A DNA stretch of 48,447 nt from a virus: IMG/VR virus record IMGVR_UViG_3300032323_003781, positions 1-48,447 of that record; one strand, written 5' to 3'. Below the pieces are notes generated by a model. That model was not told the DNA's origin, searched no databases, and was given only the letters and a program-made list of their open reading frames with translations. This document shows, one piece after another, positions 359-39,270 of this stretch (the stretch's first letter is position 1; each line of letters opens with the position of its first letter). The translations under genes were made by a program, and so were the position numbers.

Positions 359-388
359 AAAAAAAGGGACTTAAGTCCCTTTTTTTGT
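357..388. terminator. Bidirectional intrinsic terminator
   Basis: The palindrome GGGACTTAAGTCCC (366-379) is flanked by an A-run on the left and a T-run on the right, so it works as a hairpin plus U-tract on either strand. It separates two convergent genes. The stop codon of the clp gene (371-373) lies inside the stem. Confidence 0.9.
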
Positions 389-2380
389 TGATATTCTGAT
401 CTCTTCTTCTTTGAAGCTTAGATAATAATTTTTACCTTCTACAATATCTCCTGAGAGATATTTTTCGGAGATTAGGTCCTCGATTTTTTCTTGTATAGCC
501 CTTTTTATTGGTCGAGCACCATAGGTTTCATCAAAACCAACTTCGGCTATGTGATCAATAACTGAGTCCTGACAAATTACATTAATTTTCAAACTTTTCA
601 GACGGGTTGTAAGTTTAGTGACTTCGATTTTAACAATCTCTTTTACCTCTTCTTTTCCCAATGAATTGAAAACAATTACATCATCAATACGATTAAGAAA
701 TTCTGGTTGGAAATATTTTTTCATTTCAGATTTAAGGATCAATTTCTTTTTTTCCTCTTCAGCGTATCGATTTGTTGTAAATCCAATCCCCGTTCCGAAA
801 TCTTGAATTTTTTTGATCCCAATATTTGAGGTCATAATAATTAGACAATTTTTGAAACTAATTTTCCTACCTAAACCATCGGTGATGTGTCCTTCATCCA
901 ACATTTGGAGAAGTGTATGAAAAATATCTTTGTTAGCTTTCTCAATTTCATCAAATAAAACGAGTGAGTATGGTTTTGCTTTTACTTGTTCAGTAAGTTG
1001 ACCTCCTTGGTCGTAACCAACATAACCTGGGGGAGCCCCAATTAACCTAGATACAGTGTGTTTTTCTTGATATTCACTCATATCGACCCGAATTAATGCA
1101 TCAGAAGAACCGAAAACTTGTTCAGCAAGTTGTTTTGCTAGGTGGGTCTTTCCAACACCTGTCGCTCCTAAGAAAATGTAAGAACCAATCGGTTTGTTAG
1201 GATCTTTAAATTTAAGTCTATTCCTACGAATAGATTTTGAGATTTTTGTGACAGCCTCACTCTGACCTATTACTTTTTTAGATAACTCAGTTTCAAGATT
1301 CGATAAACTATTCTTATCGTCGAGAGTCAATCGATTCAAAGGTATTTTGGTCATATTGGAAACAACATCTAATACAACGTCAACATCTATCGGACGTTTG
1401 TTCATCAGTAATTCCTTTTCAAATTTGTTTTTTTCAATTTCTAACTTGTCCAATATCTTTTTCTCGGTATCTCTTAGATCTGCGGCTTTTTCATAGTCTT
1501 GTTTTTTAACTACGTCTAATTTTTGTTTTTTGATTTCTGCAGCCTTGTTCTTGAGATTTTCAATAATTGGTGGAGATTTGACATCAATTTGTGATTTTGA
1601 ACCTACTTCATCCAAGATATCAAAAGCTTTATCTGGGAATTCTCTGTCCGTAATATATCGATCTGCTAAATTTACACATAGTTCCAAAACCTCATCCGAG
1701 TATGTCACCTTATGAAAATCTTCATATCTTGTTTTGGACTGTTTAATGATTTGAAGAGTTTCTGATTTGGAAGGTGGATCAACAACAACCTTCTGAAATC
1801 GTCTTTCGAGAGCTCCATCTTTTTCAATATGTTGTCGGTATTCATCAAATGTCGTCGCTCCGATACAATGAATTTCCCCACGAGAAAGAGCGGGTTTAAA
1901 AATGTTCGAAGCGTCCATTGTCCCTGATGAATTTCCGGCGCCTACCATAGTGTGGATTTCATCTATGAAGATGATAACGTCTGGGTTTTCAGCAATTTCC
2001 TCGATGATAGCTTTCATTCGTTCTTCAAATTGACCACGATACTTGGTTCCAGCCACAATTGAAGTCAGATCCAAATTTACGATTCGTTTATCCCTTAAAT
2101 TTCTCGGACATTTACCTTCATGAATTTGAATTGCCAAACCTTCTACTATAGAGGTTTTACCAGCCCCTGGTTCACCAATGATTATAGCATTATTTTTTTT
2201 CCTACGAGAAAGAATTTGTGCAATTCGAGAAATCTCAACTTCTCTACCAATAACTGGGTCTAGTTTCCCTTCAGATGCGAGTTTATTCAAATCTCTACTG
2301 AAATTATCCAAGACTGGAGTTCCTCCACTTTTTTTACGAACTTCTTGTTCTTTTTCGTTGTCATCCATTGATTCGATCAT
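371..2380 (-). CDS. clpC: ClpC-like Hsp100 AAA+ unfoldase without N-domain
   Basis: A 669-residue double AAA+ ATPase that should unfold proteins using ATP. AAA1 has Walker A GEPGAGKT (69-76) and Walker B IIFIDE (136-141). A UVR-type motif around QDYEKAADLRD (294-304) sits between the modules, which is typical of ClpC. AAA2 has GATGVGKT (405-412) and LVLFDE (473-478). IGF at 532-534 sits where ClpA/ClpX/ClpC carry the loop that docks onto ClpP, and ClpB lacks that loop. The usual N-terminal adaptor-binding Clp repeat domain (about 150 residues) is absent; only about 25 charged residues precede AAA1. No ClpP is present, so the host ClpP is the likely partner. ATG 2380 gives a very short leader from the promoter at 2397-2428; the in-frame ATG at 2368 is an alternative. 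It is divergent from dnaK. Confidence 0.93.
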   Translation of the reverse strand: MIESMDDNEKEQEVRKKSGGTPVLDNFSRDLNKLASEGKLDPVIGREVEISRIAQILSRRKKNNAIIIGEPGAGKTSIVEGLAIQIHEGKCPRNLRDKRIVNLDLTSIVAGTKYRGQFEERMKAIIEEIAENPDVIIFIDEIHTMVGAGNSSGTMDASNIFKPALSRGEIHCIGATTFDEYRQHIEKDGALERRFQKVVVDPPSKSETLQIIKQSKTRYEDFHKVTYSDEVLELCVNLADRYITDREFPDKAFDILDEVGSKSQIDVKSPPIIENLKNKAAEIKKQKLDVVKKQDYEKAADLRDTEKKILDKLEIEKNKFEKELLMNKRPIDVDVVLDVVSNMTKIPLNRLTLDDKNSLSNLETELSKKVIGQSEAVTKISKSIRRNRLKFKDPNKPIGSYIFLGATGVGKTHLAKQLAEQVFGSSDALIRVDMSEYQEKHTVSRLIGAPPGYVGYDQGGQLTEQVKAKPYSLVLFDEIEKANKDIFHTLLQMLDEGHITDGLGRKISFKNCLIIMTSNIGIKKIQDFGTGIGFTTNRYAEEEKKKLILKSEMKKYFQPEFLNRIDDVIVFNSLGKEEVKEIVKIEVTKLTTRLKSLKINVICQDSVIDHIAEVGFDETYGARPIKRAIQEKIEDLISEKYLSGDIVEGKNYYLSFKEEEIRISTKKGT

Positions 2381-2475: not shown

Positions 2476-2541
2476 CGTTTTACTATTTGGTATGTTATTT
2501 GTTTTTGATTGTATCAAAATAAAAATATAAAAAATAAAGTT

Positions 2542-4410
2542 ATGAATAAAAATGTAATTATCGGTATTGATTTAGGTACCACAAACTCAGCAGTAGCAAT
2601 TATTGAAGGAGGTCAACCTTTGGTAATTGCCAATTCAGAAGGTAAAAGAACTACACCATCAATTGTGGCTTTTACTGATAAAGACAGAAAAGTTGGTGAC
2701 CCCGCAAAAAGACAAGCAGTTACCAATCCCGAAAAAACAATTTACTCAATTAAACGATTTGTTGGTAAAGATTTTGATAAATGTAAATCTGAAACTAAAA
2801 AAGTACCTTACAAAACAATAAAAACTTCGAATGGTTTGGTTGGTGTAAAAATTGATGATAGAACATACACACCACAGGAGATCTCTGCGGCTATTCTACA
2901 AAAAATGAAAAAAACTGCAGAAGATTATTTGGGATATGAAGTAACAAGAGCAGTAATTACGGTGCCCGCATATTTTGGTGATCAAGAAAGAAGTGCGACG
3001 ATCGAAGCTGGTGAAATTGCAGGGTTGAAGGTTGAAAGAATTATAAATGAACCAACGGCTGCAGCCTTAGCATATGGATTGGATAAAAAATCGAAAGATT
3101 CAAAAATTCTTGTGTTCGACTGTGGTGGTGGTACTCACGATGTTTCGGTATTAGAAATTGGTGATGGTATTTTCGAAGTTAAATCAACTGATGGTGATAC
3201 TCATTTGGGTGGGGACGATTTTGATAATGCTATTATCAATTGGATGGTATCTGAATTCAAAGCTGAATATAATATAGATCTTACCAAGGACCCTATGGCA
3301 TTGCAAAGAATCAGAGAAGCCGCGGAAAAAACAAAAATTGAACTTTCTTCCTCACCATCAAGTGAAATTAATTTACCATATATCTCTGTTAGTGATAATG
3401 TACCCATTCACTTTGTTAAATCTTTATCAAGAAGTAAATTTGAACAATTAACAAAAGATTTGGTAGATAGAACAATTGCTTGTGCAAAAAAAGCATTGAA
3501 AAATGCAAACCTAAAACCTTCAGACATCGATGAAGTGGTTTTGGTCGGTGGATCTACTCGTATTCCTGCAATTCAAGAAGCCGTTGAAAACTTTATTGGT
3601 AAAAAAGCAAACAAATCAGTAAATCCTGACGAGGTCGTGGCTTTAGGTGCTGCCATTCAAGGAGCTGTACTTACAGGAGAAGTTAATGATGTATTGTTGT
3701 TAGATGTAGTTCCACTTTCTTTCGGTATTGAAACTATGGGTGGTGTGATGACAAAAATTATCGAGGCAAATACGACAATACCAATCAAAAAACAACAAAC
3801 ATTCTCAACAGCTGCGGATAATCAACCAACAGTAGATATTCACGTGTTACAAGGTGAAAGGCCAATGGCGAATGACAATCGTTCACTAGGAAGATTTTTC
3901 TTAGAAGGTATTACACCAGCTCCTAGAGGAGTACCACAAATTGAAGTTACAATAGATATTGATGTTAACGGAATTTTACACGTAACCGCAAAAGATCAGG
4001 CATCAGGTAAAGAAAATAAAATAAGAATCGAAGGTGGATCCTCACTATCCACTGAAGAGATCGAAAGAATGAAACGAGAAGCTCAAGAAAACTTGGAAAA
4101 GGATAAACAAGCTCAACAGAGAGTGGAACTATTCAATCAATGTGATTCTCAAATATTCAATACAAAGAAAAACATGGAAGAATGGAAGGACAAATTCACT
4201 AAAGAACAATCTTCAAAGTTGAATGAAACACTCAGTCATTTAGAAAATGCATATTCAGAACGGAATGAAGAGAAGTGTAAAGAATATTCAGAAAAATTGA
4301 ATAAAGTTTTTACAGAGGTTTCAAATGAAATTTATTCCACGATGAAACCTGACGATGGTAATGAAACTTCAAACAACGAAGTTCAAGATATCGAATATAC
4401 TGAAGTGTAA
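2542..4410 (+). CDS. dnaK: DnaK (Hsp70) chaperone
   Basis: A 622-residue, full-length Hsp70 that should bind and release unfolded proteins in an ATP cycle. The ATPase domain begins with GIDLGTTNS (8-16). The second phosphate loop reads [10 protein letters not shown] from residue 193, with the catalytic Thr kept at 198; most DnaK proteins have DLGGGTFDVS, so Cys and His replace Leu and Phe. The [10 protein letters not shown] linker, the beta-sandwich substrate domain and an alpha lid follow, and the protein ends in DIEYTEV. ATG 2542 was chosen over the upstream TTG at 2509 because Hsp70 homology begins directly after it. No DnaJ or GrpE lies in the window, so host co-chaperones would be needed. 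It is divergent from the clp gene, which suggests co-regulation. Confidence 0.97.
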
Positions 4411-4432: not shown

Positions 4433-4464
4433 AAAAGACCGACCCCTTGAAAGGTCGGTCTTTT
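4433..4464 (+). terminator. Intrinsic terminator after dnaK
   Basis: A perfect 12-bp stem, AAAAGACCGACC (4433-4444) pairing with GGTCGGTCTTTT (4453-4464), has an 8-base loop and ends in a T-run. It is positioned to end the dnaK transcript. Confidence 0.9.
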
Positions 4465-11253: not shown

Positions 11254-11260
11254 TATTTAT
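11254..11260 (+). promoter_or_regulatory. Putative late-promoter box TATTTAT
   Basis: TATTTAT within GAATATTTATTG, ending 8 bases before the portal ATG at 11269, in the 29-base gap after terminase. Confidence 0.5.
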
Positions 11261-11268
11261 TGTTAATT

Positions 11269-13113
11269 ATGGAAAATAAAAATTTAACGATTTGGCAGAG
11301 ATTATCTCAAAGTTTAGGGCCAAATTCTTTATTGGGTCAAGATTTACCAACATATACTTTTGATAAAAAAGAATTACTCAAGACCCAAAATAAAGACGAA
11401 TATGAAAAACAAAAACTTCAAGCTCAACAAACATATTATCTTGTAAGTCAATGGGCTAAAGTTGAAAATAATCTATACAATCAAGCGGTATATTATGAAC
11501 CAACAAGATTGGCTTCATATTATGATTTTGAAAGTATGGAATACACACCTGAAATTGCCTCAGCATTAGACACATACGCTGAAGAATCAACTACGGTCGA
11601 TGAAAATGGATTTATGTTACAAATCTATTCGGACTCACCGAGGATTAAATCAATTTTAGCTGACTTGTTTAATAATGCTTTAGATATCAATACAAATTTA
11701 CCTATGTGGACGCGTAATACCGCTAAGTATGGTGATAATTTTGTGTTTTTGAAATTAGATCCTGAAAGAGGTGTTGTTGGGTGTCTACAGTTACCAAATA
11801 TAGAGATTGAAAGGATCGAGGTTGGTATGAAAGGTAGAGCAACCTCAGGTTTTGGGGCTGCACAATCATCAAGACCAGATGTGAAAAGTTTGACATTCAC
11901 TTGGAAAAACAAACAACTTGATTTTAATAGTTGGGAAATTGCACATTTTAGATTGTTAGGAGATGATCGTAAGTTACCATATGGTACATCGATGACTGAG
12001 AAGGCAAGAAGAATTTGGAAACAATTGGTGTTAGCTGAGGATGCGATGTTAGTTTATAGGACCTCACGAGCACCTGAGAGAAGAGTTTTCAAAGTTTATG
12101 TAGGAAATATGGATGATGCCGATGTATATCCATATGTACAAAGATTTGCACAACAATTCAAAAAGGACCAAATAGCTGACCCTAAAACGGGTAATGTCGA
12201 TATGAGATTCAATCAAATGGCGGTTGACCAAGATTTCTTTATCCCTGTTAGAGACCCCGCAGCACCAACACCTATCGATACCTTAGCAGGGGCTCAAAAT
12301 CTTTCTGAAATTGCTGATATCGAGTACATTCAGAAGAAACTTCTAACTGCTTTAAGAATTCCTAAAGCATTTTTAGGATTTGAAGAACCCGTCGGAGATG
12401 GGAAAAATTTATCACTTCAAGATATTCGTTTTGCTAGAACGATCAATCGTATTCAAAAATGTATGATTGCTGAACTAAATAAAATCGCAATAATTCATTT
12501 ATTTCTTTTAGGGTTTGAGGATGAGCTAGGTTCATTTCAATTGTCTTTGACCAATCCATCAAAACAAGCTGATTTACTTACTGTGGAAGTTTGGAAAGAA
12601 AAAATGTTATTGTATCGAGATGCTGTTACAAAAATTGAGGGAATTGCACCTGTGTCCACAGCTTGGGCTAAAAAACACATACTTGGTTTCTCTGACGATG
12701 AAATCAAATTGGATCTTAACCAACAAAGAATGGAGATTGCAGTTGCTGCTGAGTTAACAAATACTCCTAACGTTATTAATAGAACGGGTATCTTTGACAA
12801 TATTGATAAACTGTATAGTAAATCAATTTTAAGTGGTGAAACCGCCACGAGTGGATCTGTTCCACCTGGTGGTGCAGAACCTTTACCACCTATGGGGGGC
12901 GAATTAGGTGGTATGGCTCCTGGACCTGGTGGTGAAACACTTCCTCCTCCTGAAGAACCGACATTGGCTCCTGAAAATACAAAGAAGTCTACAAATATTA
13001 TTCTAGAAAGATTGGAAATCGAAGAAAAAAGTGAGATTGATTTTGATAAAGGAGAAAAAATATTACAATCAATAAGTCAAGTGTTGGATAAATTGTCGGA
13101 CGATAATATTTAA
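11269..13113 (+). CDS. Portal protein (gp20-like)
   Basis: A 614-residue portal that forms the dodecameric channel at the head vertex. It resembles T4-like portals: an early Tyr-rich segment (YYEPTRLASYYDFESMEYTP), then DTYAEESTTVDENG, a wing/clip region, and LTALRIPKAFLGFEEP with KNLSLQDIRFARTINRIQ in the stem/crown region. The C-terminal 90 residues are a Pro/Gly-rich tail. The open frame begins at a TTG at 11260, but ATG 11269 is a better start. It is preceded by a TATTTAT box. Confidence 0.9.
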   Translation: MENKNLTIWQRLSQSLGPNSLLGQDLPTYTFDKKELLKTQNKDEYEKQKLQAQQTYYLVSQWAKVENNLYNQAVYYEPTRLASYYDFESMEYTPEIASALDTYAEESTTVDENGFMLQIYSDSPRIKSILADLFNNALDINTNLPMWTRNTAKYGDNFVFLKLDPERGVVGCLQLPNIEIERIEVGMKGRATSGFGAAQSSRPDVKSLTFTWKNKQLDFNSWEIAHFRLLGDDRKLPYGTSMTEKARRIWKQLVLAEDAMLVYRTSRAPERRVFKVYVGNMDDADVYPYVQRFAQQFKKDQIADPKTGNVDMRFNQMAVDQDFFIPVRDPAAPTPIDTLAGAQNLSEIADIEYIQKKLLTALRIPKAFLGFEEPVGDGKNLSLQDIRFARTINRIQKCMIAELNKIAIIHLFLLGFEDELGSFQLSLTNPSKQADLLTVEVWKEKMLLYRDAVTKIEGIAPVSTAWAKKHILGFSDDEIKLDLNQQRMEIAVAAELTNTPNVINRTGIFDNIDKLYSKSILSGETATSGSVPPGGAEPLPPMGGELGGMAPGPGGETLPPPEEPTLAPENTKKSTNIILERLEIEEKSEIDFDKGEKILQSISQVLDKLSDDNI

Positions 13114-13125
13114 TAAATAAACATT

Positions 13126-13827
13126 ATGAAATTCGGAGAACTTTTTTCATCAATAGAAGATCATCTAATCTCGTCATACCAAAATGGTATTTTCGAACAG
13201 GAGATTAAAAAATTCAAGAAATTGGTTCTTGAAAATAAAGATTTAACTTCTGTATTTTATCACTATCAATCATTAAAAAACACAAGGTCTTTAGATAAGG
13301 ACACTGCTGAAATTTTTATTCAAGAATCTGTAAAACAGATTGAAGAAAATAAAAAATCGGTGAAGAAAAAATTGGCAGAATTTTGGGTTAAAGAAATCAA
13401 AACTGATAACATATACGAGGATATTGATAATTTAATTTACCCTGATTTCACAAATTTGGTGGAGTGTGCACACTCTAAAAAAAGGTTAATTAATCAACTT
13501 TCAGAAGATACAGAAAAGAAAGAAAATATCAATTTACCAATTAATTCTATTCTGAAGATAGCAAATAGTACCGCGTCTAATTATATTTCGAATTTAGATG
13601 AAAATACTCAAAAAGAGTTGATGAGTATTTTGACAGAGAGTGAAGAAACTCTTCAAAAAAAATATGACGAAGTCAAAACCAATACTATCAATAAATTACT
13701 AGACATCTCAAAAGAAAATACTGAAGACATTTCTTCAAAAATTCAAGAAACCATCAGTACCATTGAGAAAGAAACTTTTGATAGGATTAACTTTGTTAGG
13801 TTAAAAAACCTATACGAGAGCTTGTAA
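13126..13827 (+). CDS. Helical acidic protein, possible prohead core component
   Basis: A 233-residue, lysine/glutamate-rich protein that appears almost wholly helical, with coiled-coil-like stretches (LQKKYDEVKTNTINKLLDIS and SSKIQETISTIEKETFDRI). In T4 the genes between portal and protease encode small prohead core proteins (gp67, gp68), so position and composition fit a core or assembly role. I cannot show homology. It ends 2 bases before the convergent bS21 gene. Confidence 0.75.
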   Translation: MKFGELFSSIEDHLISSYQNGIFEQEIKKFKKLVLENKDLTSVFYHYQSLKNTRSLDKDTAEIFIQESVKQIEENKKSVKKKLAEFWVKEIKTDNIYEDIDNLIYPDFTNLVECAHSKKRLINQLSEDTEKKENINLPINSILKIANSTASNYISNLDENTQKELMSILTESEETLQKKYDEVKTNTINKLLDISKENTEDISSKIQETISTIEKETFDRINFVRLKNLYESL

Positions 13828-13829
13828 AT

Positions 13830-14021
13830 TTACCCCTCAGAACTACGTTTTTTTTGTATAAACTGAGCTTTTAGAATTTCTTTCCTTCTTTTTTGAGATT
13901 TACTTTCATGAGATAATCTTGACAAAAGAATTTCATTCTGTTTGGTTCTGATTATTTTTCCTTTCAATAATTTGAGACTTTTGTCGAGATTCGACGTACC
14001 ATTAATTTTTATTATTATCAT
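13830..14021 (-). CDS. rpsU: Ribosomal protein bS21, phage-encoded
   Basis: A 63-residue basic protein that fits bS21 of the small ribosomal subunit. It starts MIIIKINGTSNLDKSLKLLK, like the Bacteroidota form that begins with an Ile-rich strand and a helix carrying the D-x-(A/S)-L-(K/R) pattern. It ends in KRRKEILKAQFIQKKRS, matching the family's helix 2. In Flavobacterium, bS21 helps hide the anti-Shine-Dalgarno end of 16S rRNA, and an aromatic at about residue 54 is involved; here it is Phe54 instead of the usual Tyr. The gene is on the opposite strand within the head operon. No Shine-Dalgarno precedes it. Phage bS21 genes are known and may steer host ribosomes toward phage mRNA. Confidence 0.82.
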   Translation of the reverse strand: MIIIKINGTSNLDKSLKLLKGKIIRTKQNEILLSRLSHESKSQKRRKEILKAQFIQKKRSSEG

Positions 14022-14118
14022 ATCAACTAATTATATTAATTATGAAAAAAATTTGATTTATATCAATATTATAACTATTTTTTTGAAAAAAAATAAACCA
14101 TTGTTATTATGTTAATTA

Positions 14119-14568
14119 ATGAAAAAAGGCAAAACGTGTAAATTAAATGGATTTACAAGATTAAAAAGTACGTACGGTACAGTGGATTCAAGAACATTTA
14201 AATCATTGTATTTGAATATCCAAAGTTGGGTAACACCCAAAAAAAATGTTGAAAATTGGTCGAGAGTCATAAACATATTAAATAGAGAAATCAAAGAAAC
14301 CATAGGTGATTTTTTAGATCTTAATTTATTTCAATCTACATTCATTTGTGATTTAGATCTTAGAACTAGTGGTCTTGTTATGGGTAAAAAAAGTTTTATG
14401 AATTTAGAAATAACTTTTTTCGTAAATAAAAATGTTGAGTTTAAATCTCTGATCTTAAAAAAACATTTGCAAGATATAACTTCTTTTATAAATTCCCATA
14501 ATTTTTCTCAAAATATTTATTTCGATTTTGAAAAAACAAAAAAAACAAAAACAATCGAAACTACCTAA
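14119..14568 (+). CDS. Unknown protein in head gene cluster
   Basis: A 149-residue basic protein, not recognised. It begins MKKGKTCKLNGFTRLK and has a central WSRVINILNREIKETIG helix, then alternating strands (FICDLDLRTSGLVMG, LEITFFVNKNVEF) and an Asn/Lys-rich tail. It lies between the divergent bS21 gene and the prohead protease. A compact alpha-beta fold and role in head assembly are possible but unproven. Confidence 0.7.
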   Translation: MKKGKTCKLNGFTRLKSTYGTVDSRTFKSLYLNIQSWVTPKKNVENWSRVINILNREIKETIGDFLDLNLFQSTFICDLDLRTSGLVMGKKSFMNLEITFFVNKNVEFKSLILKKHLQDITSFINSHNFSQNIYFDFEKTKKTKTIETT

Positions 14569-14588: not shown

Positions 14589-15320
14589 ATGAAAATATTA
14601 GGACCAAACGAAGTGGGAAAAGGTATCTTGATTGAGATGGACGCAGGATTTGTGTCTGCCACAGATCACAGAAACATAAAAGTTTTGGAAGAACAAAAAA
14701 CTCAATTAGATTATTCGAAACCTTTTGAATTTTATGCTGTATTACAAAAATATAATACACCAAATAGAAATGGTAGAATTTATCCAGAACAAATTCTTAA
14801 AAGAGAAGCTGAGAACTACAAAAAATTAATTAAGAAAGGAGTTGCACTATCTGAATTAAACCATCCAGAGTCTTCATTGATTGATTTAGACCGAGTATCT
14901 CACATAATTAGTGACTTATGGTGGGAAGGTCAAATGTTACTTGGAAAACTAAAACTTTTAACGTCACCTGGATTTCATGAGAGGGGGATAGTATCAACCA
15001 AGGGAGATCAAGCAGCAAATTTACTAAGACAAGGAGTAACTTTAGGAATATCATCTAGGGGTGTTGGGTCTCTGAAAAAAGTTGGAGAACAAAACGAAGT
15101 TCAAAAGGATTTTGAATTAATATGTTTCGACTTAGTTTCTTCACCTTCCACACCAGGAGCTTATTTGTTCTCAAACATTGACGATCGACATTCATTCGAT
15201 GAAAATATCGAAGAAGAAAAAAAATTAAGACAGATATCGTCAGAATCCACTGAAAACACAAATCCTATGAATCGGTCTATTGACTTGATGAATAAATTGA
15301 ATAACTTTTTAAGAAAATAA
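14589..15320 (+). CDS. Prohead maturation protease (gp21-like)
   Basis: A 243-residue serine protease of the T4 gp21 type that should cleave scaffold and capsid proteins during head maturation. The core has NRNGRIYPEQIL (60-70), the catalytic His in ELNHPE (His92), the Ser in GISSRGVGS (Ser155/156) and a final acidic residue in FDLVSSPSTP (Asp181). Its own C-terminal tail is helical and charged and may be removed by self-cleavage. It is followed after 3 bases by a small DUF4494-like gene and then by its likely substrates, scaffold and capsid. Confidence 0.92.
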   Translation: MKILGPNEVGKGILIEMDAGFVSATDHRNIKVLEEQKTQLDYSKPFEFYAVLQKYNTPNRNGRIYPEQILKREAENYKKLIKKGVALSELNHPESSLIDLDRVSHIISDLWWEGQMLLGKLKLLTSPGFHERGIVSTKGDQAANLLRQGVTLGISSRGVGSLKKVGEQNEVQKDFELICFDLVSSPSTPGAYLFSNIDDRHSFDENIEEEKKLRQISSESTENTNPMNRSIDLMNKLNNFLRK

Positions 15321-17243: not shown

Positions 17244-19106
17244 ATGGGTGCATTATTAGAAAGCGGTCTTGTTGGTAACATCGGGTTAAAACACCTTAAA
17301 GTTATCAAAGAAGATACAATCAACAAGTGGGACAAACTTGGGTTCTTAGAAGGACTAAAAGGTCATATGAAAGAAAACGTTGCTCAGTTATATGAGAACC
17401 AAGCGTCATTCTTGATAAACGAAGCGTCATCGACTTCTGACAGTGGCTCTTTTGAAACCGTTGTATTTCCTATCGTAAGAAGGGTTTTCTCAAAACTTTT
17501 AGCTAACGATATCGTATCGGTACAAGCAATGAACTTACCTATCGGTAAATTGTTCTACTTTGTTCCTAAAATTCAAGGTTATTCGGGTGGAACATCACCA
17601 AATGATTTGGGATGGTTAGGTCAAAGTGGTGACCACTATGCTCCAATTGGTTCACCTGGTAACTATCCAGGAAATCAAAATGCAGGTTATACTGCAGCGG
17701 ACAGCACAGGTACTTATAACCCTTATTACCAAAAAGATCTTTACGATTTATTTTATGAAGGTGATGAGGCAACATTAAACCCTCCAGGTCTTTTTGACTA
17801 CTCTAAAGGTAAATGGACCGCAACAACTGCTACAACAGCAACTGTTGCTTGGAATGCTGGTGGAAACCTAGTAGTTTCTGGTTACGGCTCAAGTGATTAC
17901 CGTAAAGTAATCTTAGCAATGAGTGGTTTCTCAAACGCTGGTGCTGGTCAATTAATCGGACCAAATGGTAATACTATGGATACCGAAGAATTCCTTTCAG
18001 GCTTGAACATTTTCGGAGCTTACGGTAACACAACAACGTCAAGTCAGGCCTCAGGTAATGGTAATCCTTTCCTTTTCAGAGTTGTAACTCAAAAGTATGG
18101 TAAAGGCATCGTTCAATACGGTTCACAAACCAATACTACATGGCCGATTGGTAACAATTCGGGCGGTGCTTACAACAATGTTTGTGATGCAAATGGTGTT
18201 ATTTATTTGGAAGTTGATTTACAACAACCTGTATGTGTTTCTTGTGGACAAACAACACCTGATGGTTATACAGGATCTACATTCTCATCATCAACCGCGA
18301 ATAACAACGCCTTTATCGCGATCTACAGAGTTTATAAAGAACTTGAATTCGAAGATCAAATCGGTGAGGTTTCTTTCGATTTAGAATCCGTTACAGTATC
18401 TGTAACAGAACGTAAATTGAGAGCACAATGGTCTCCTGAACTTGCTCAAGACGTTTCAGCGTTCCACAACATTGATGCTGAAGCTGAGCTTACAGCTCTT
18501 CTTTCTGAACAAGTTGCCGCTGAAATCGACAGAGAAATTTTGAGAGATTTGAGAAAAGGTGCCGCTTGGAACTTGAGATGGGATTACAACGGTTGGAAGA
18601 GATTGGCTTCTACAGGAACTACTCCTTATACTCAGAAAGATTGGAACCAAACACTTATTACCGCTATCAACCAATTGTCGGCACAAATCCATAAGTCGAC
18701 ATTGAGAGGTGGTGCTAACTGGATCGTTTGTTCTTCTGAGATTTCAGCGATCTTTGATGATTTGGAATATTTCCACGTATCAAACGCTGCTCCTGAGCAA
18801 GATCAATACAACATGGGTATTGAGAGAATTGGTACACTATCCGGTAGATATCAGGTTTACAGAGATCCATATTTCCCACCAAACCAACTTATCATCGGTC
18901 ACAAAGGTACTTCATTGTTAGACACAGGTTACATTTACGCTCCGTATGTACCTCTACAATTGACGCCTACTATGTACAATCCGTTCAACTTTACACCTAT
19001 CAAAGGTATAATGACAAGATACGCTAAGAAAATGGTTAACAACCGTTTCTATGGTCGTGTGACTTGTGACGGTATCCGTACTTTCGATTTGAGAGAATTA
19101 CGTTAA
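17244..19106 (+). CDS. Major capsid protein (gp23-like)
   Basis: A 620-residue capsid subunit, longer than T4 gp23 (about 520). The N-terminal 60 residues are a charged helical propeptide ending FLINE, followed by ASSTSDSG. This fits the T4 maturation cleavage rule (Leu/Ile-x-Glu then a small residue), which cuts T4 gp23 after Glu65. The HK97-type core includes VVFPIVRRVFSKLLANDIV, FEDQIGEVSFDLESVTVSV and ERKLRAQWSPELAQDVSAFH. A long Gly/Thr/Asn-rich insertion at about residues 130-360 (with CVSCGQTTPDGYTG) may form a surface domain. No TATTTAT box precedes it; transcription probably reads through from the scaffold. Confidence 0.95.
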   Translation: MGALLESGLVGNIGLKHLKVIKEDTINKWDKLGFLEGLKGHMKENVAQLYENQASFLINEASSTSDSGSFETVVFPIVRRVFSKLLANDIVSVQAMNLPIGKLFYFVPKIQGYSGGTSPNDLGWLGQSGDHYAPIGSPGNYPGNQNAGYTAADSTGTYNPYYQKDLYDLFYEGDEATLNPPGLFDYSKGKWTATTATTATVAWNAGGNLVVSGYGSSDYRKVILAMSGFSNAGAGQLIGPNGNTMDTEEFLSGLNIFGAYGNTTTSSQASGNGNPFLFRVVTQKYGKGIVQYGSQTNTTWPIGNNSGGAYNNVCDANGVIYLEVDLQQPVCVSCGQTTPDGYTGSTFSSSTANNNAFIAIYRVYKELEFEDQIGEVSFDLESVTVSVTERKLRAQWSPELAQDVSAFHNIDAEAELTALLSEQVAAEIDREILRDLRKGAAWNLRWDYNGWKRLASTGTTPYTQKDWNQTLITAINQLSAQIHKSTLRGGANWIVCSSEISAIFDDLEYFHVSNAAPEQDQYNMGIERIGTLSGRYQVYRDPYFPPNQLIIGHKGTSLLDTGYIYAPYVPLQLTPTMYNPFNFTPIKGIMTRYAKKMVNNRFYGRVTCDGIRTFDLRELR

Positions 19107-29607: not shown

Positions 29608-30200
29608 ATTAAATTTTTTACAAGTTCTGAAAGTTCTGTGATCGAACTTATAGAATATTTTATTTTTATATCAGAATTATAAGGTTTTTCGAATTTAATT
29701 AAAGTTTTATTTTTGTTAATTTGTAATAATTCGGGGTCTGTTGTTAATAAAATATCAAATTCTTTCCATATTTTGTTTTTGGTTTTGTTATTATAAAAAA
29801 CAATTTTTTCAATTTCACATCCGAATTTGGATACGAAGAACAAGGTTGCTGGTTTACTTTTACCTACTTGTTTTGAAATTAACAAAAACTCTACTTTACC
29901 AAAATACTCTTTATAAATTTCATTTAAAATATGAAATGTACCCATCTCAGTTGATGGAGCATGTCCAAAAATTTGCATAGTAAATTCGTTGAACATAAAG
30001 TTATAATATTCGTCGTCATTTTTAAAATTGAAATGATTTCGGTAATCATTAGTGTTATAAGGTTTATAGATTTCAAATTTGAAATCATCATCGACCAACT
30101 CTAATTCATCAATAAAGAACTTTTGATAAATTTGTTCTATTTTTTCGAATGTATCCCTTAAAACACCTTCTATATCAATTGCTATTCGAACTTTTGCCAT
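29604..30200 (-). CDS. HAD-fold hydrolase-like protein, altered motif I
   Basis: A 198-residue protein. It starts with the HAD-type motif I as AIDIEGVLRDTF, in which the nucleophile Asp is kept but the second Asp (general acid) is Glu. A motif-III lysine candidate sits in KQVGKSKPATLFFVSKFG, and a motif-IV acidic pair in DILLTTDPELL. The altered acid could slow or redirect chemistry or mark a non-catalytic role. Overlap of 26 bases with the epimerase gene upstream ties it to sugar metabolism, for example sugar-phosphate hydrolysis. The activity is inferred. Confidence 0.65.
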   Translation of the reverse strand: MAKVRIAIDIEGVLRDTFEKIEQIYQKFFIDELELVDDDFKFEIYKPYNTNDYRNHFNFKNDDEYYNFMFNEFTMQIFGHAPSTEMGTFHILNEIYKEYFGKVEFLLISKQVGKSKPATLFFVSKFGCEIEKIVFYNNKTKNKIWKEFDILLTTDPELLQINKNKTLIKFEKPYNSDIKIKYSISSITELSELVKNLI

Positions 30201-31308
30201 ACTTTTTTTTGTTTACCATTTCTTGAATCCAAGTGTAAGTTTTTTTCATACCATCTCTTAAAGTCATAGAACTTTCCCATCCAACTTTTTCTTTATAAAG
30301 TTTATTGTCTGAATTTCTACCTCTCACACCAGTTGGACACTTGAATCCGTATTTGTTTACAAATTCATCACCATCAATGTTTGTGATTTTTATATCTTTA
30401 CCTGAAATATCTATAGCAATCTGAGCTAATTCGTTTATTGAGACCATTTCTTCCGATCCGATATTGACTGGACCTGTGAAATCACTTTCCATAAGTCGTA
30501 AAACGGCTTCTACACATTCTTCAACATACAAGAAGGAACGTGTTTGTTTTCCATCCCCCCACACTTCGATTTCGTATTCAGGTCTTGTTTGACCTATTAT
30601 TTTTGTAGCGTCATCTATTTCTGCAACTTTCCTACACATGGCCGCTGGTGATTTTTCTTTACCACCAACCCATGTCCCTTGAGGACCAAATATATTGTGA
30701 AATCTAGCAATTCTAACATTCAAACCATAATTTCGTGCAAATGCGAGAAATAATCTTTCAGAAAATAATTTTTCCCAACCATATTCTGAATCTGGATTTG
30801 CGGGATATGCGGATGATTCTTCACAATTTGGATTGTCAGGGTCAAGTTGGTTATGTTCAGGATACATACAAGCAGAGGATGAATAAAATAATTTACCAAC
30901 TTTTGTTTTTACACATTCATGAGCAACATTAAGATTTATCATTGCCGAATTATGCATTACATCCGCGTCATGTTCACCTGTAAAGATGTATCCCGCCCCA
31001 CCCATATCAGCGGCCAATTGATATACTTCATCAAACCCTATTTCTTTGGAAAAAGGTTGTTTAAGATACTTAAATGGTTGGGGATAGTTACCATTGTTAA
31101 CTTCTAATCTCATAACGGCTTTTACATTTTGAGGATCTCTTAAATCATAAGTAAGAAATTCGTCACAAATTTCATTTTCTTTGAAATACTCGTGTTTTTT
31201 CAAATCAACAACACGTACATAATGTCCTTCTGATTTCAGTCGTTTAGCTAAATGTCCCCCTATGAATCCACCCCCACCTAAAACTAATATATTTTTAAAT
31301 TGTCTCAT
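30175..31308 (-). CDS. GDP-mannose 3,5-epimerase-like NAD-dependent epimerase
   Basis: A 377-residue extended SDR enzyme. Its sequence follows the GDP-mannose 3,5-epimerase (GME) family closely. The NAD-binding GGGGFIGGH is at 11-19 and LAADMGGAGYIF at 98-109. SSSACMYPEHNQ contains Cys147, SEYGWEK has Tyr176/Lys180, and RFHNIFGPQGTWVGGKEKSP carries Lys217/219. QTRSFLYVEECVEAVLRL and GVRGRNSDN follow. In plant GME the equivalent Cys and Lys are the acid-base pair. The product from GDP-D-mannose would be GDP-L-galactose (and GDP-L-gulose). It sits beside two fucosyltransferase-type genes. A weak upstream promoter is possible. Confidence 0.85.
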   Translation of the reverse strand: MRQFKNILVLGGGGFIGGHLAKRLKSEGHYVRVVDLKKHEYFKENEICDEFLTYDLRDPQNVKAVMRLEVNNGNYPQPFKYLKQPFSKEIGFDEVYQLAADMGGAGYIFTGEHDADVMHNSAMINLNVAHECVKTKVGKLFYSSSACMYPEHNQLDPDNPNCEESSAYPANPDSEYGWEKLFSERLFLAFARNYGLNVRIARFHNIFGPQGTWVGGKEKSPAAMCRKVAEIDDATKIIGQTRPEYEIEVWGDGKQTRSFLYVEECVEAVLRLMESDFTGPVNIGSEEMVSINELAQIAIDISGKDIKITNIDGDEFVNKYGFKCPTGVRGRNSDNKLYKEKVGWESSMTLRDGMKKTYTWIQEMVNKKKYGKSSNSN

Positions 31309-31330
31309 ATTTTTTTTTGTTTTTTTTCGT

Positions 31331-31363
31331 AAATCATACCCAACTTATAGTTTATGTTACAAA
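31331..31363 (-). promoter_or_regulatory. Possible weak Bacteroidota-type promoter
   Basis: On the minus strand, TTTG (31363-31360) is followed after 21 bases by TATGATTT (31338-31331), six of eight positions of TAnnTTTG. It sits in the 87-base gap before the epimerase gene. Confidence 0.3.
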
Positions 31364-31395
31364 GTGAATAAAATTACTCTGTAGAAATCCTTTAG

Positions 31396-32334
31396 TTATT
31401 TTTCAAAATATTTACGATATGTTTCTAAATATTTATTGGTATTTTCAGGTAAATAATTATAATAACTTTGAATATTGTCTAATAGTTTTAATGTGTTCCT
31501 ATAACCAATAACTTCGTTTTCTAGATTACGAATTAGGTCTTGTGGGTTTCTCTCTTGATATACTGAGGCTCGTGTAAAAATAATAGATTCGGGATGATAA
31601 AATTGTTGGATATAAGCTCCCCATATATCATCCATTCTTCCAATAAAAGGTAAAACCGAATAATTTTTCAAGACACTTCTATGTAAAAAAGTATTTTGTG
31701 AATTGTAGGGTACCATCTGTTTGGTAGTAAATGTATCAAACTTTTCAAATTTTACAATTGGTTTTTTACTCAATCTACAAATTGCATCTATATCAGGATC
31801 TCCATCCCAAAATTCTGCCTGAACTAAAGGAACAATCTCAGTTTTTCCTTTGTATTCAATGTCATTTTTAACTTTCAAGTATTCTATTGGAAAACCTCTG
31901 TGCCACAATTCATTGTGAGTTGTAACAGAAATTGGATCGAAATATTTACAACTCGTATTTTCGTATAAATCAACAATTATTTTTTTACCAACAAAAATTT
32001 CGTCTCCCCAAAAATCATAAGGTATGTTATCATCGTCAACTGTTGCAACAATTTCCGCATTATTTTGATATGCATAAATAAATCCGAGGTTTCTTCTCTG
32101 TATCGTATTCCAACCAATCAGACTAGAAATTTCAGGATATAATTCATCTTGTTGACTAGGTGACAAATAAGTAACATTTTTATAATTTCGTTCTAATTTT
32201 CTATATTCATCTACAGGTGTTTTTAAATCACCAACTATAACGAATTGGAAATCTTTTTTTTCTGCAATTTCACAAAACTTTATCGTTGCCTTTGTTGGTG
32301 AATTAATTGTAGTCGTTATAATAAAATTTTTCAT
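31396..32334 (-). CDS. Glycosyltransferase, GT-A with DDD motif (STELLO/DUF288-like)
   Basis: A 312-residue protein. TTTINSPTKATIKFCEIA opens the fold, and EIVATVDDDNIPYDFW (about residues 90-104) carries a three-Asp metal site. The end is helical. The overall order resembles the DUF288/STELLO-type glycosyltransferases, but a different GT-A family is possible. The conserved HRGFPIEYLK segment suggests acceptor binding. It is the first gene downstream of the FkbM gene, 4 bases away. Confidence 0.7.
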   Translation of the reverse strand: MKNFIITTTINSPTKATIKFCEIAEKKDFQFVIVGDLKTPVDEYRKLERNYKNVTYLSPSQQDELYPEISSLIGWNTIQRRNLGFIYAYQNNAEIVATVDDDNIPYDFWGDEIFVGKKIIVDLYENTSCKYFDPISVTTHNELWHRGFPIEYLKVKNDIEYKGKTEIVPLVQAEFWDGDPDIDAICRLSKKPIVKFEKFDTFTTKQMVPYNSQNTFLHRSVLKNYSVLPFIGRMDDIWGAYIQQFYHPESIIFTRASVYQERNPQDLIRNLENEVIGYRNTLKLLDNIQSYYNYLPENTNKYLETYRKYFEK

Positions 32335-32338
32335 AATC

Positions 32339-32935
32339 CTAGTTTTTCAATATCAAAAAGGTATGTTGTTCGTACTGTTTATGTATTTCATACATTGGAA
32401 GATGTTTTTGTATAAAATCAATAACGTACTCCATAGTTTTATTATGCCACTCGACAAAAATATATTTCGATTTTTTTATTAAGTTAGAGTTTTCCAATAT
32501 ATTATATTCAGATGCTTCTACATCTAATTTGACTAAATCCGCAGGTCGATTTAAAAAGTATTCCAAAGTTTCAAGTTTAAAAATTTTACCAGGATATGTT
32601 TCTATTCTATCACCCCAAAACTCTTCTTTGAATTCACTTTGGATTTCGGAAACCATATATCCTCCATCGTTATTATCGCCGATTCCTTGAACCTTAGATT
32701 CCTTAACACCATAAAAAATCCCATAATTATAACCGTGAGTGAAGTCAAACTTAGATAGACGGTCAAAACATTTTGAATAATTTTCAAGATCTGGTTCGAA
32801 ATAATGTAATTCATTTATTTTTTTTTCACTTAATAGGTTTATAAAATCACCATAGTTACACCCAATGTCTAAGACAACATTTAATTCTAATGGTGTTTCT
32901 AATAACCATTCTTTATACATTTTTTCTCCGTACAT
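32339..32935 (-). CDS. FkbM-type SAM methyltransferase
   Basis: A 198-residue methyltransferase with motif I VVLDIGCNYGDFINLL (about 20-35), the acidic turn YFEPDLENY, and LVKLDVEASEYNILE (about 140-154), characteristic of the FkbM family, which methylates sugar or polyketide hydroxyls. It probably O-methylates a sugar in the glycan made by neighbouring enzymes. Twelve bases separate it from the GT gene upstream. Confidence 0.8.
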   Translation of the reverse strand: MYGEKMYKEWLLETPLELNVVLDIGCNYGDFINLLSEKKINELHYFEPDLENYSKCFDRLSKFDFTHGYNYGIFYGVKESKVQGIGDNNDGGYMVSEIQSEFKEEFWGDRIETYPGKIFKLETLEYFLNRPADLVKLDVEASEYNILENSNLIKKSKYIFVEWHNKTMEYVIDFIQKHLPMYEIHKQYEQHTFLILKN

Positions 32936-32947
32936 GTTAATTTAGTT

Positions 32948-33793
32948 TTATGTTTTTTTTAATTCGTAACTATTCCATCCCCAATTTTCACCATTTGAGG
33001 TTTCTGTAAAATTATTTACACATACAAATCTGTCGTTCATAGGAAGGATTTCACCTGGTAATGAGTTTTTGGTAGTCCCATGATTCAAATGAAAAACATG
33101 GGTATTTGATTTTTTTGTTTTATATTTCAAGGCTCCTTTTTTCATTAAATTTGAATCTGCAAAACATCTCCCCCCAAAAGATTCTTCGAAACCTTTTATT
33201 CCATACCATACATCTTTGTGTGCAAATTGAAAGTCACCACACCCAACAACCAAAGACCAAATATCCCCTGAATCCCAAACCGCTTTACCATCAATAACAG
33301 CATCTGGTTGTTGTTTGAAATTTGATGAATTGTTTCTTATTTCTTCAAATAATTTTTGACTGTCATTAAATTTAAGATGAAATTCTTCAGGAACGTCTAT
33401 TCTTGCCGAAGTATAAAGAGTATTTTTTTCAAAATCATTTAAATTTAATTTTCCAACTAAAACGTCAATATTTGTGACTAAAATCCAATCGTTAGTCGCT
33501 CTCCTAATACCAATATTTCTAGCAATAACCTCAACGATTGAGTAATTTTGATATTCAGGGTTATTTTTTAATATATCCTGTTTAGTAACAATATATGATA
33601 TAATTTTTTGTTTATTGTTTATACTATAGATGGTTTCTTCTATCAGTGATTTTCCATTAGAGTTCCAGTCAACATAGATAATCTCATCAAATGATTCACT
33701 TAGTATGTTTAACGAGTGTTTAAATCTATGTACAAGATTACCGCCGTAGTTATCGTTTTTGCCAATCAAAACAACTGAAATTTTATTCTCCAT
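32948..33793 (-). CDS. Glycosyltransferase, GT-A family
   Basis: A 281-residue GT2-like enzyme. ISVVLIGKNDNYGGN opens the Rossmann-like half, IIYVDWNSNGKS binds the nucleotide, and NDWILVTNIDVLVG (about 110-123) provides the DxD-like site. GIKGFEESFGGRCFADSNLM is the acceptor-side loop with a likely catalytic acid. The C-terminus ends in a conserved HLNHGTTKNS region. Donor unknown. It starts 96 bases after the DUF6165 gene. Confidence 0.8.
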   Translation of the reverse strand: MENKISVVLIGKNDNYGGNLVHRFKHSLNILSESFDEIIYVDWNSNGKSLIEETIYSINNKQKIISYIVTKQDILKNNPEYQNYSIVEVIARNIGIRRATNDWILVTNIDVLVGKLNLNDFEKNTLYTSARIDVPEEFHLKFNDSQKLFEEIRNNSSNFKQQPDAVIDGKAVWDSGDIWSLVVGCGDFQFAHKDVWYGIKGFEESFGGRCFADSNLMKKGALKYKTKKSNTHVFHLNHGTTKNSLPGEILPMNDRFVCVNNFTETSNGENWGWNSYELKKT

Positions 33794-33817
33794 TATCTTT
33801 CTATTTTTTTATAAAGT

Positions 33818-33862
33818 TTATCACAGAAATTTTTACTAGTTACAGAACTAGTATGGTGATAA
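33818..33862. other. Nested inverted repeat in the glycan block
   Basis: TTATCAC (33818-33824) pairs with GTGATAA (33856-33862), and inside that ACTAGT (33835-33840) pairs with ACTAGT (33847-33852). It lies in the only sizeable gap in this part of the gene block. No U-tract follows, so it does not look like an ordinary terminator. It may be an RNA structure or a scar of recombination. Confidence 0.35.
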
Positions 33863-33889
33863 GTTCCCAAAATGTTCCAAATAAACTCA

Positions 33890-34273
33890 TTAGTTATATT
33901 TTACATATTCTTTTACCTCTCTTATTTCAGAATTGGTAATAAGGTTTATTTCGTTCTTTAATATAAATCTTTGGTCGTTTGTGATGTACACTTTTCTCGA
34001 AAGATCTATAAAATCGTCTTCAAAACTTTTTTCATTTTCAAGCATCCTCAACTTGTCTTCGACATTCCAAAGTTTTTCATTTACATCGCATAATTGGTGA
34101 TACAAATCTTCTATTTTAGGTCTGTCCAAATAAATTGATGACAAATTATAAAGTAACTCGAATTCTTTATTAATCAAGATTAATTTTTTTTCGTTATCTA
34201 TTTTAATTTTTTTAACGTGTAGAATTGATAATTTATCAATTAATTCACCAACACTTATAGGCACGTAAATCAT
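33890..34273 (-). CDS. DUF6165 family protein
   Basis: A 127-residue protein. It begins MIYVPISVGELIDKLSILHV, then has a helix-rich stretch LYHQLCDVNEKLWNVEDKLR and the typical end FIDLSRKVYITNDQRFILKN. This matches DUF6165, a family of unknown function often encoded beside glycosyltransferases. It overlaps the GT gene upstream by 4 bases. It may be a partner or regulator of a neighbouring transferase (inference). Confidence 0.8.
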   Translation of the reverse strand: MIYVPISVGELIDKLSILHVKKIKIDNEKKLILINKEFELLYNLSSIYLDRPKIEDLYHQLCDVNEKLWNVEDKLRMLENEKSFEDDFIDLSRKVYITNDQRFILKNEINLITNSEIREVKEYVKYN

Positions 34274-34974
34274 TTAATATAAATTAAATCTTTATCAAAT
34301 ATATGTTCTACTTGATGAAAGCTAGGTGGATTATGTCTTGAATATACGGTAACATTTTTTAAACCTAACTTACTAATTATGTATAAAATTGAAGTTTCAA
34401 CAGTATAAATATGTTTGGCTTTGAGCAACAACCCAATCCAATCGAAAAGATTGTCCCACCCTAGGTATATCATTTCTATTGCGTTTTCATACTCGCCCAT
34501 ATGTGAACATGGTTGTGAATGTGGCGGAGAACCATACATTCTATTAACAAAAACAAATTCTCTATCATTAGCATCAAAATAATCAATTAATTTCTGTTCT
34601 CTTTCTAGATTTCTTTCGAAGGTAAAATGTTCAATCCAGTCACTAAAATCCATATCAAGTAATTTATATTTTGCATGCATTACAGAGCCATTATAATGTC
34701 TATCAAAATGTTGAATTGGTAGATATACGTCGTACCAATTAATCAACATAGGTTTTGAATGACCCTCGTTGTAGATGTTTTTATATGGAAAATCAATGTT
34801 TTCATTAACAAATATCAAACCGTTAATTTTAATATAATCTTTAATGAATTCAAATTGTGAGATAACTGGCCATATAACTGTATATCCTTTAATTAAATAA
34901 TCTTTTGCAATTTTTTGTGTGAAAAAAATATCACCAATTCCTGCGGGTTGTCGTATTAAACAAATTTTAGACAT
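34270..34974 (-). CDS. GT-B glycosyltransferase-like protein (family 9 type)
   Basis: A 234-residue protein. ICLIRQPAGIGDIFFTQKIA resembles the G-x-G-D turn at the start of GT9 heptosyltransferases. The late segment AKHIYTVETSILYIISKLGL, then VTVYSRHNPPSF, matches the nucleotide-binding half of that fold. It is shorter than usual GT9 enzymes (about 330 residues), so part of the acceptor domain may be missing. ATGA-type overlap links it to the DUF6165 gene, and an 8-base overlap links it to the GT10 gene. Confidence 0.65.
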   Translation of the reverse strand: MSKICLIRQPAGIGDIFFTQKIAKDYLIKGYTVIWPVISQFEFIKDYIKINGLIFVNENIDFPYKNIYNEGHSKPMLINWYDVYLPIQHFDRHYNGSVMHAKYKLLDMDFSDWIEHFTFERNLEREQKLIDYFDANDREFVFVNRMYGSPPHSQPCSHMGEYENAIEMIYLGWDNLFDWIGLLLKAKHIYTVETSILYIISKLGLKNVTVYSRHNPPSFHQVEHIFDKDLIYIK

Positions 34975-35785
34975 ATTCTTTTAAGTAGTTTTCAAAAATC
35001 CAATCTTCTAACACACTATACTTCAGAACTCTATTAAAGTTATCTTTGATAGCTTCTATTTTTGATTGATATAACTCTTCGGTTAGTTCAGACAGGTCAA
35101 ATGTACCATCAAAAAAAATTATCCCTTCGGAGTTGAAATATTTTACAACATTTTTTGTGCCCATGTAAATTGGTACAGTACCAGTTGCAAAACAATCTAA
35201 TATTTTTTCTGTAAAATAGGTATCATAGGTATCATTTTCAACTGCAAATGAAAAACGGTAATTTTTTAAACCAATTTCTTTATTTGGAATTTCTTTAATA
35301 CCTCGACCGAAAACATCAATTTTATCAATGTTATTCATTGCAAAATCATGTCTAATTTCATGTTGACGTGTCCATCTTTTGTTTGATGTAATCATCGAGA
35401 CCATCTTTGTCTTCGGGTGAATTCCAAATTCTTTAATATAACTACCATATGCTGGTGTCCATTTGAACTTTGGATTCAATGAAAGTAGTTCATCATTGTG
35501 GGTCCAAATCTGTTCGAACGTATTTAAAACATCATCTAAGTTCGATTTGATGTTATCAATGGCACCACCATCAAATTTTCTTGATTCAATTACCCAAAGG
35601 AATTTTTTTTTAACACCATTGTCAACCTTATGGTCCTCAATACCCTTGAACAAATCATTGTCTAAGTAAACTGAAATCGGGTTTTCGTAACTATTGAAAC
35701 ACCATTCGATAAATTTGGGGGGTTTATTTGCTGTAGAACCTTTGTCGTGAGCAAAGTTTCTTGATAACATATTTAATTTAACCAT
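34967..35785 (-). CDS. GT10 alpha-1,3/4-fucosyltransferase-like protein
   Basis: A 272-residue protein. The signature RFSFAVENDTYDTYFTEKIL, then DCFATGTVPIYMGTKNV, is the donor-binding motif of GT10 fucosyltransferases (F-x-x-x-x-E-N-x(4)-Y-x-T-E-K-x(6)-G-x-V-P). The N-terminal half provides the acceptor domain (LWVIESRKFDGGAIDNIKS). The donor would normally be GDP-L-fucose. It overlaps the GT11 gene by 13 bases. Confidence 0.88.
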   Translation of the reverse strand: MVKLNMLSRNFAHDKGSTANKPPKFIEWCFNSYENPISVYLDNDLFKGIEDHKVDNGVKKKFLWVIESRKFDGGAIDNIKSNLDDVLNTFEQIWTHNDELLSLNPKFKWTPAYGSYIKEFGIHPKTKMVSMITSNKRWTRQHEIRHDFAMNNIDKIDVFGRGIKEIPNKEIGLKNYRFSFAVENDTYDTYFTEKILDCFATGTVPIYMGTKNVVKYFNSEGIIFFDGTFDLSELTEELYQSKIEAIKDNFNRVLKYSVLEDWIFENYLKEYV

Positions 35786-36582
35786 CCGTCTTCATATTTA
35801 ACTTCGACAACAGTCCAATATGGTTCATAAATATCTTTATAATTTCTTGGTCCTCTCGGTCCAAACCAAATAGACGGCGCTACTATTTTTTTATTGGGGT
35901 TATTATTTAAAAAACTTCCCCACCATGAGAATGTAGAATTCACAATGATATTATTTTTACACAATGACATTAACCACAATTCTCTATAATCTTCATCGTC
36001 CACGTAATTTACATTATCAAACTTGAGATTTTCTTTTACCCATACTTTATCATCACTAAAAACAAATACGTGAGAATATTCACCGATCTCTTTAATGGCG
36101 TTTTCAATATATTTCTCAGTCGCAATTGGGTGGATATCAGGATTCATAAAACAATCACCCCTCCTAATGTGAATTGACAGTGTTTTTTCTTCATTCAGTT
36201 CAGGATGTTTCTCCAACATCTCATTAATAAATTCTTTGGTAGGTGAGAAGGTGTTTCTGATTTGGTTGTCTTGACCCAAAAAATTTTTTGAACTTTGAAA
36301 GTATCCATCAAATACTGTATTGTTTTCTTTGACATGTACCTCACTATACTCCCATGGACCCTCACTTACTTTTTCAAAACCATCAATATTATCTACAAAC
36401 TTTAATTTTCTGAAAATATTATTTAAGTAGTTTTCTGTTTGTCTACCTTGCATTGGAGTCCACGATTTAGGGATAAAAACCACTTCTCTGTTGTGTATCA
36501 TACCTTGTGCTATAGCATGAGCGGCTTGGAAAATTTGATTACCTAACCCCCCCATCAAATTACATGATATCAAATTATTCAT
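35773..36582 (-). CDS. GT11 alpha-1,2-fucosyltransferase-like protein
   Basis: A 269-residue protein. ISCNLMGGLGNQIFQAAHAI is the classic GT11 start, LSIHIRRGDCF is the H-x-R-R-x-D donor motif, and IIVNSTFSWWGSFLNNN with KIVAPSIWFGP forms motif III. The donor should be a GDP-6-deoxy-L-sugar or related GDP-L-hexose. It stands 13 bases after the UDP-glucose dehydrogenase gene. Length is close to the usual 280-300. Confidence 0.9.
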   Translation of the reverse strand: MNNLISCNLMGGLGNQIFQAAHAIAQGMIHNREVVFIPKSWTPMQGRQTENYLNNIFRKLKFVDNIDGFEKVSEGPWEYSEVHVKENNTVFDGYFQSSKNFLGQDNQIRNTFSPTKEFINEMLEKHPELNEEKTLSIHIRRGDCFMNPDIHPIATEKYIENAIKEIGEYSHVFVFSDDKVWVKENLKFDNVNYVDDEDYRELWLMSLCKNNIIVNSTFSWWGSFLNNNPNKKIVAPSIWFGPRGPRNYKDIYEPYWTVVEVKYEDGWLN

Positions 36583-36595
36583 ATTATTAATTTTT

Positions 36596-39269: not shown

Positions 39270-39270
39270 A

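Follow-up and report, generated by a model that had tools for sequence, protein, structure and literature searches.

A diverged phage bS21 with Phe54 and a leader without a Shine-Dalgarno sequence, encoded among T4-like head genes

Results

The bS21 gene and its surroundings

The window, that is, the whole stretch of DNA analyzed here, is a virus record of 48,447 bases and probably a genome fragment. A reverse-strand open reading frame (ATG to TAA) lies amid its terL-portal-protease-major capsid protein (MCP) block, between two hypothetical families, and encodes a ribosomal protein bS21 of 63 residues. The features of the locus are as follows.

11260-13113, + strand: T4-like portal protein gp20 (PF07230, E=3.5e-72)
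13126-13827, + strand: conserved hypothetical gene following the portal gene; its 3' end faces that of bS21 across a 2-nt gap
13830-14021, - strand: bS21 (rpsU-like), by homology; same context in 44 distinct phage relatives
13860-13862, - strand: codon 54, TTT (Phe), opposite Tyr54 of F. johnsoniae in the ungapped 7jil_z alignment
13902-13904, - strand: codon 40, AGT (Ser), where nearly all other bS21 proteins have Lys
14022-14046, - strand: bS21 leader without a Shine-Dalgarno (SD) sequence, A+T-rich, with 2 G and 1 C in 25 nt (dG -1.4 kcal/mol)
14045-14066, - strand: conserved 22-nt block TTGATAnAAATCAAATTTTTT with a 5-bp palindrome
14119-14568, + strand: divergent neighbor of 149 aa; nearly all phage loci have a homolog here
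14589-15320, + strand: prohead protease (Peptidase_S77; PF03420, E=2.3e-23)
17244-19106, + strand: MCP gp23 (PF07068, E=4e-72)

The preliminary description, made from the sequence alone, had called this gene a phage bS21, and homology bears this out. Over residues 1-60 the protein can be aligned with F. johnsoniae bS21 (PDB 7jil chain z) without a gap, at a single-sequence E of 0.01, and a five-row profile of its clade (A3) matches 7jil_z at E=4.3e-12 and 9i5v_9 at E=4.7e-10 over residues 1-61. Its single-sequence PF01165 score of 18.8 bits lies under the curated cut-off of 27, which is the curators' threshold and not a biological definition; related phage bS21 proteins exceed the family cut-offs (L014, 30.6 bits for PF01165; L022, 35.5 against 28.95 for TIGR00030). 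No match was found in PHROGs or NCBIfam, and no record in the phages collection encoded a detectable relative. The AF2 model (pLDDT 82) has helices at residues 12-26, 30-36, and 41-62, and eight of its nine Foldseek matches came from ribosome or small-subunit entries, although every one had E>1. The bS21 core residues L16, K20, K22, R46, K51, and A52 are present. In IMG/VR, seven further contigs carry a 98-100% identical bS21 and eight more carry relatives of 81-87% identity, all with F54, so this residue is not a sequencing error. Within the clade of the window (seven distinct proteins), dN/dS was about 0-0.12 where estimable, which indicates strong purifying selection.

IMG/VR scans yielded 45 distinct bS21 proteins, of which 44 were kept as phage. 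The one dropped, from a 'viral' contig with His54 (L020), is probably bacterial: its protein and leader match those of bacterial loci L282 and L284, and no phage structural genes lie nearby. As far as their contigs reach, all 44 distinct phage loci show the same arrangement of genes around bS21 as the window. This system has already been described by Chen 2022 (PMC9723584), who reported 47 genomes of T4-like phages with bS21, mostly from freshwater and of about 293-331 kb. There, a reverse-strand bS21 gene sits within the terL, portal, protease, and MCP genes and is expressed with the late genes, and its product was proposed to enter host ribosomes. The window shares with those phages the T4-like head genes, the reverse-strand bS21 between portal and protease with two hypothetical flanks, and an aromatic residue 54; it differs in belonging to a diverged Phe54 sub-clade, which, together with the leader comparison, is what is new here.

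The divergent neighbor at 14119-14568 probably sits where Chen et al. place 'bS21_CN'. Its AF2 model (pLDDT 90) predicts an alpha/beta fold without a clear known counterpart, and a search against PDB sequences gave no match. Foldseek returned weak matches to neck, tail-terminator/tail-completion, and unrelated proteins, the best being an uncharacterized myovirus protein. A bS6-like reading, suggested by the order of strands and helices, was set aside, as no bS6 occurs among the Foldseek matches listed. The protein starts with 'MKKGK' and has a D.D.R..G motif.

The TTGATAnAAATCAAATTTTTT block is near-invariant in eight clade members while the remaining intergenic region drifts, and we infer that it is probably the promoter or operator of bS21. 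TATTTAT-like elements occur in 37 of 43 phage bS21 leaders, against 15% in shuffles; unlike most of its phage relatives, the window has none in its bS21 leader and carries its own conserved block instead. Another sequence, TATTTATA, lies 12-27 nt before the starts at 4447, 4740, 14589 (the protease), and 15655 on the + strand and 21060 and 45256 on the - strand. It is about 14-fold enriched, and may be a promoter element of this phage.

Residue 54 and other substitutions of the clade

As the preliminary description had stated, residue 54 is Phe in place of Tyr; it lies opposite Tyr54 of F. johnsoniae. The placing of the aromatic residue 54 in the pocket that holds the anti-SD agrees with McNutt 2023 (PMC9976891). 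Among the 44 distinct phage proteins, residue 54 is Phe in all seven of the window clade and Tyr in all 37 others. In bacteria it is Tyr in 80 of 80 Flavobacterium-type host loci; the Bacteroidia-type loci of a phylum sample have 34 Tyr and 2 His, and a class-wide sample has 89 Tyr and 1 Phe. The 90 loci of the class sample were picked for scoring highest against the clade profile, not at random, and some of their genomes also occur in the phylum sample. The single bacterial Phe54 protein (L389) belongs to an rpsU with a weak SD (-5.3). Chen 2022 (PMC9723584) likewise found residue 54 aromatic throughout, mostly Tyr with a few His and one Phe.

The Phe54 clade also carries K40S, R18L, Y/F19L, and R33L. 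Lys40 is otherwise kept in 34/34 hosts of the Y54 type, 76/76 others, and 37/37 Tyr phages, and the class set has 89 Lys and 1 Arg out of 90. K40S, R18L, and R33L are more drastic departures than Phe54, which is a conservative change. Since Phe retains the ring that stacks on A1534, and since both an earlier phage case (that of Chen 2022) and bacterial L389 exist, Phe54 alone is no argument for an altered pocket. The substitution singled out in the preliminary description is real and fixed in its clade. A separate signature spans the phages as a whole: Q28 is found in all 44 phage proteins and in none of the 34 and 90 hosts, and I24 and K27 are almost fixed in phages. Chen 2022 (PMC9723584) saw phage bS21 divergence at positions 21, 23, 25, and 28.

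Leaders of phage and host bS21 genes

SD energy was taken as the strongest pairing between the 16S tail UCACCUCCUUUCU and the 25 nt before the start. The tail was assumed from F. johnsoniae; as the leader holds only 2 G and 1 C, a variant anti-SD would barely alter the result. The absence of an SD noted earlier was confirmed: besides the -1.4 kcal/mol of the leader itself, the entire 97-nt intergenic region upstream of bS21 offers no pairing beyond -2.7 kcal/mol. This leader is thus not an extended SD in the sense of McNutt 2023 (PMC9976891), whose criterion for autoregulation is a value below -13 kcal/mol. Flavobacteriales rpsU, homologous to the phage gene and likewise encoding an aromatic residue 54, differs in having such an SD, and leaders in the 80 Flavobacterium-type loci range from -18.4 to -21.6 kcal/mol.

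This copy shares its lack of an SD with phage bS21 genes in general. Leaders are weaker than -3 kcal/mol for 42 of the 44 distinct phage bS21 proteins, which share ancestry, so that 42/44 amounts to about one evolutionary event and significance values are not independent; 35 distinct phage leaders have a median of +0.6 kcal/mol, like shuffled leaders. Two lineages do have an SD: L157/L173 (aaaggagg, -12.2 kcal/mol; absent from its neighbor L189) and the huge phage LR756501 (-12.1 kcal/mol). The latter is one of four huge phages (LR745206, LR756501, LR756502, and LR756504; 634-735 kb) that resemble the window in carrying a Bacteroidota-type bS21 but have Tyr where the window has Phe54. Moreover, the 52 gene starts of the window average -2.5 kcal/mol, against -3.3 in mock windows, and show no SD use. 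Genes of this phage by default have no SD, so its bS21 leader stands out only against a Flavobacteriales-type host rpsU.

Such an rpsU is not general. Only 16 of 90 class-wide Bacteroidia leaders reach -12 kcal/mol, and in view of this sample we gave up the idea of a strong SD in every host rpsU. The count agrees with the order-by-order survey of McNutt 2023 (PMC9976891), which shows no strong rpsU SD in Bacteroidales. Most Bacteroidia outside the SD orders lack one.

Phylogeny of the phage bS21 proteins

In a weakly resolved bS21 tree built on 64 columns, one clade (98/95) unites the phage proteins with one huge-phage protein. It is nested in a host-containing group (97/94), and the rpsU genes of the main hosts there carry SDs of -17 to -19.6 kcal/mol. 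Three bacterial sequences with weaker SDs adjoin the phage clade, and two of them are second copies (L295 and L303). These two represent a second bS21 paralog of Bacteroidota (RKHRNVK type), and they lack the strong SD seen at the main copy. A long branch (1.11; support 100/100) leads to the Phe54 clade. The simplest reading of this topology is that bS21 was captured from a Flavobacteriales-type bacterium and lost its SD; under a single capture of this kind, the phage leaders represent few independent events. The nearest cultured phages include Flavobacterium phage immuto and also a Microcystis phage.

Discussion

A possible bS21 supply outside host feedback

In F. johnsoniae, rpsU autoregulates through its extended SD, as reported by McNutt 2023 (PMC9976891), so the earlier statement that host rpsU senses free anti-SD by means of its own SD stands for that species. 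The same study found poorer initiation on SD-less mRNA by ribosomes whose bS21 was truncated, and poor translation of the strong-SD rpsU by wild-type ribosomes. It speculates on the role of phage bS21, and in the sections consulted phage leaders are not examined.

The explanation that we prefer, and to which we give an even chance, is that the phage gene supplies bS21 late and independently of feedback, so that ribosomes stay suited to the SD-less mRNAs of the phage. The gene would be transcribed alone, from the reverse strand within the head-gene block, and its mRNA translated by the ordinary SD-less route, so that synthesis would not depend on ribosomes lacking bS21, unlike that of an SD-controlled host rpsU. 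The product, a presumably functional bS21, would occupy the bS21 site of the host 30S subunit late in infection, giving bS21-replete ribosomes with the anti-SD tucked away and the ring of Phe54 stacked on A1534. Such ribosomes would initiate best on SD-less mRNAs, that is, on those of nearly all phage genes. In a Flavobacteriales-type host, a side effect would be less translation of host rpsU through the host's own feedback.

Several observations are consistent with this explanation: bS21 homology, the purifying selection on the clade, and the same reverse-strand position in 44 loci; late expression in related phages (Chen 2022, PMC9723584); the contrast between 42/44 phage leaders and the Flavobacterium-type loci; the nesting of the phage clade among strong-SD hosts, with the SD most simply lost on capture; the lack of SD use in the window; and the behavior of truncated-bS21 and wild-type ribosomes in McNutt 2023. 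In addition, the bS21 of Pelagibacter phage HTVC008M, from another phage and host group, has been shown to become part of E. coli ribosomes (Mizuno 2019, cited by McNutt 2023, PMC9976891). Against it stand the two phage lineages with a strong SD, the shared ancestry of the other leaders, and the loss of K40, R18, and R33 in the clade, which could weaken rRNA binding. Moreover, with most Bacteroidia outside the SD orders lacking a strong rpsU SD, there may be no feedback to escape. The escape from feedback proposed in the preliminary description is thus retained in part: the leader has no SD, whereas rpsU feedback is not universal in Bacteroidia, and escape would require a Flavobacteriales-type host, a host type that the tree favors without proving it.

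A stronger form of the preferred explanation, which we consider unlikely, is a one-way override: the SD-less bS21 would be made at full rate by replete ribosomes, fill the site, and shut off host rpsU, until late ribosomes carried phage bS21 only and handled mRNA differently through its N-terminal half. The specialized ribosomes hypothesized by Chen 2022 and suggested in the preliminary description, in which the changed N-terminal half, near the mRNA path, favors phage over host mRNAs, seem doubtful but somewhat less so. The phage-wide signature that hosts lack (Q28, I24, and K27) and the divergence seen in that study speak for them, but phage and host mRNAs are both SD-less, and the basis of selection is not obvious. 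Plain capture has better prospects, and we regard it as possible: the gene would have no special tie to host feedback, and its leader would have no SD simply because the same is true of nearly all genes of this phage. SD energies of the window equal those of mock windows, phage leaders equal shuffled ones, and many Bacteroidia rpsU genes are SD-less too. The source lineage, however, had a very strong SD, and plain capture concerns cause more than consequence, since the feedback of an SD-type host would not reach the gene either way.

The two remaining alternatives carry little weight. Phe54 and the other clade changes might free the anti-SD on phage-modified ribosomes, as a milder Y54A, a mutation that raises strong-SD reporters 1.7- to 3-fold (McNutt 2023, PMC9976891). 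The clade-specific K40S, R18L, and R33L would fit, but Phe retains the ring, a bacterial Phe54 bS21 exists, and the phage's own genes have no SD with which to profit; loosening of the pocket through Phe54 is unlikely, and the proposal as a whole very improbable. We consider least probable of all a non-ribosomal role, for example as a virion component delivered with the DNA. The fixed position among head genes, the strong divergence (branch 1.11), and the mention of packaging as a possibility by Chen 2022 (PMC9723584) point in that direction, against which the bS21 core residues K20, K22, R46, and K51-A52 are kept.

The preferred explanation joins two published ideas, the swapping of phage bS21 into Bacteroidetes ribosomes and the self-sensing of host bS21 through an extended SD; our literature search found no paper that examines phage bS21 leaders or joins both ideas on sequence data. 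The leader comparison predicts that phage bS21 synthesis would be insensitive to bS21 depletion and that phage bS21 would repress host rpsU. The Phe54 sub-clade, with its K40S, R18L, and R33L, offers natural variants for asking which residues anti-SD sequestration requires.

Other genes of the window

No tRNA genes were found in the window. A phage DnaK (Hsp70) is encoded at 2509-4410 (+) and is 57-72% identical to the DnaK of the same four uncultured, bS21-carrying huge phages. Beside it, at 371-2380 (-), lies a Clp/ClpB-type AAA+ ATPase, the two forming a phage proteostasis set. The region 30175-40914 (-) holds sugar-nucleotide and glycosyltransferase genes (epimerase, UDP-glucose dehydrogenase, GT2/GT4), as in the phages of Chen et al.
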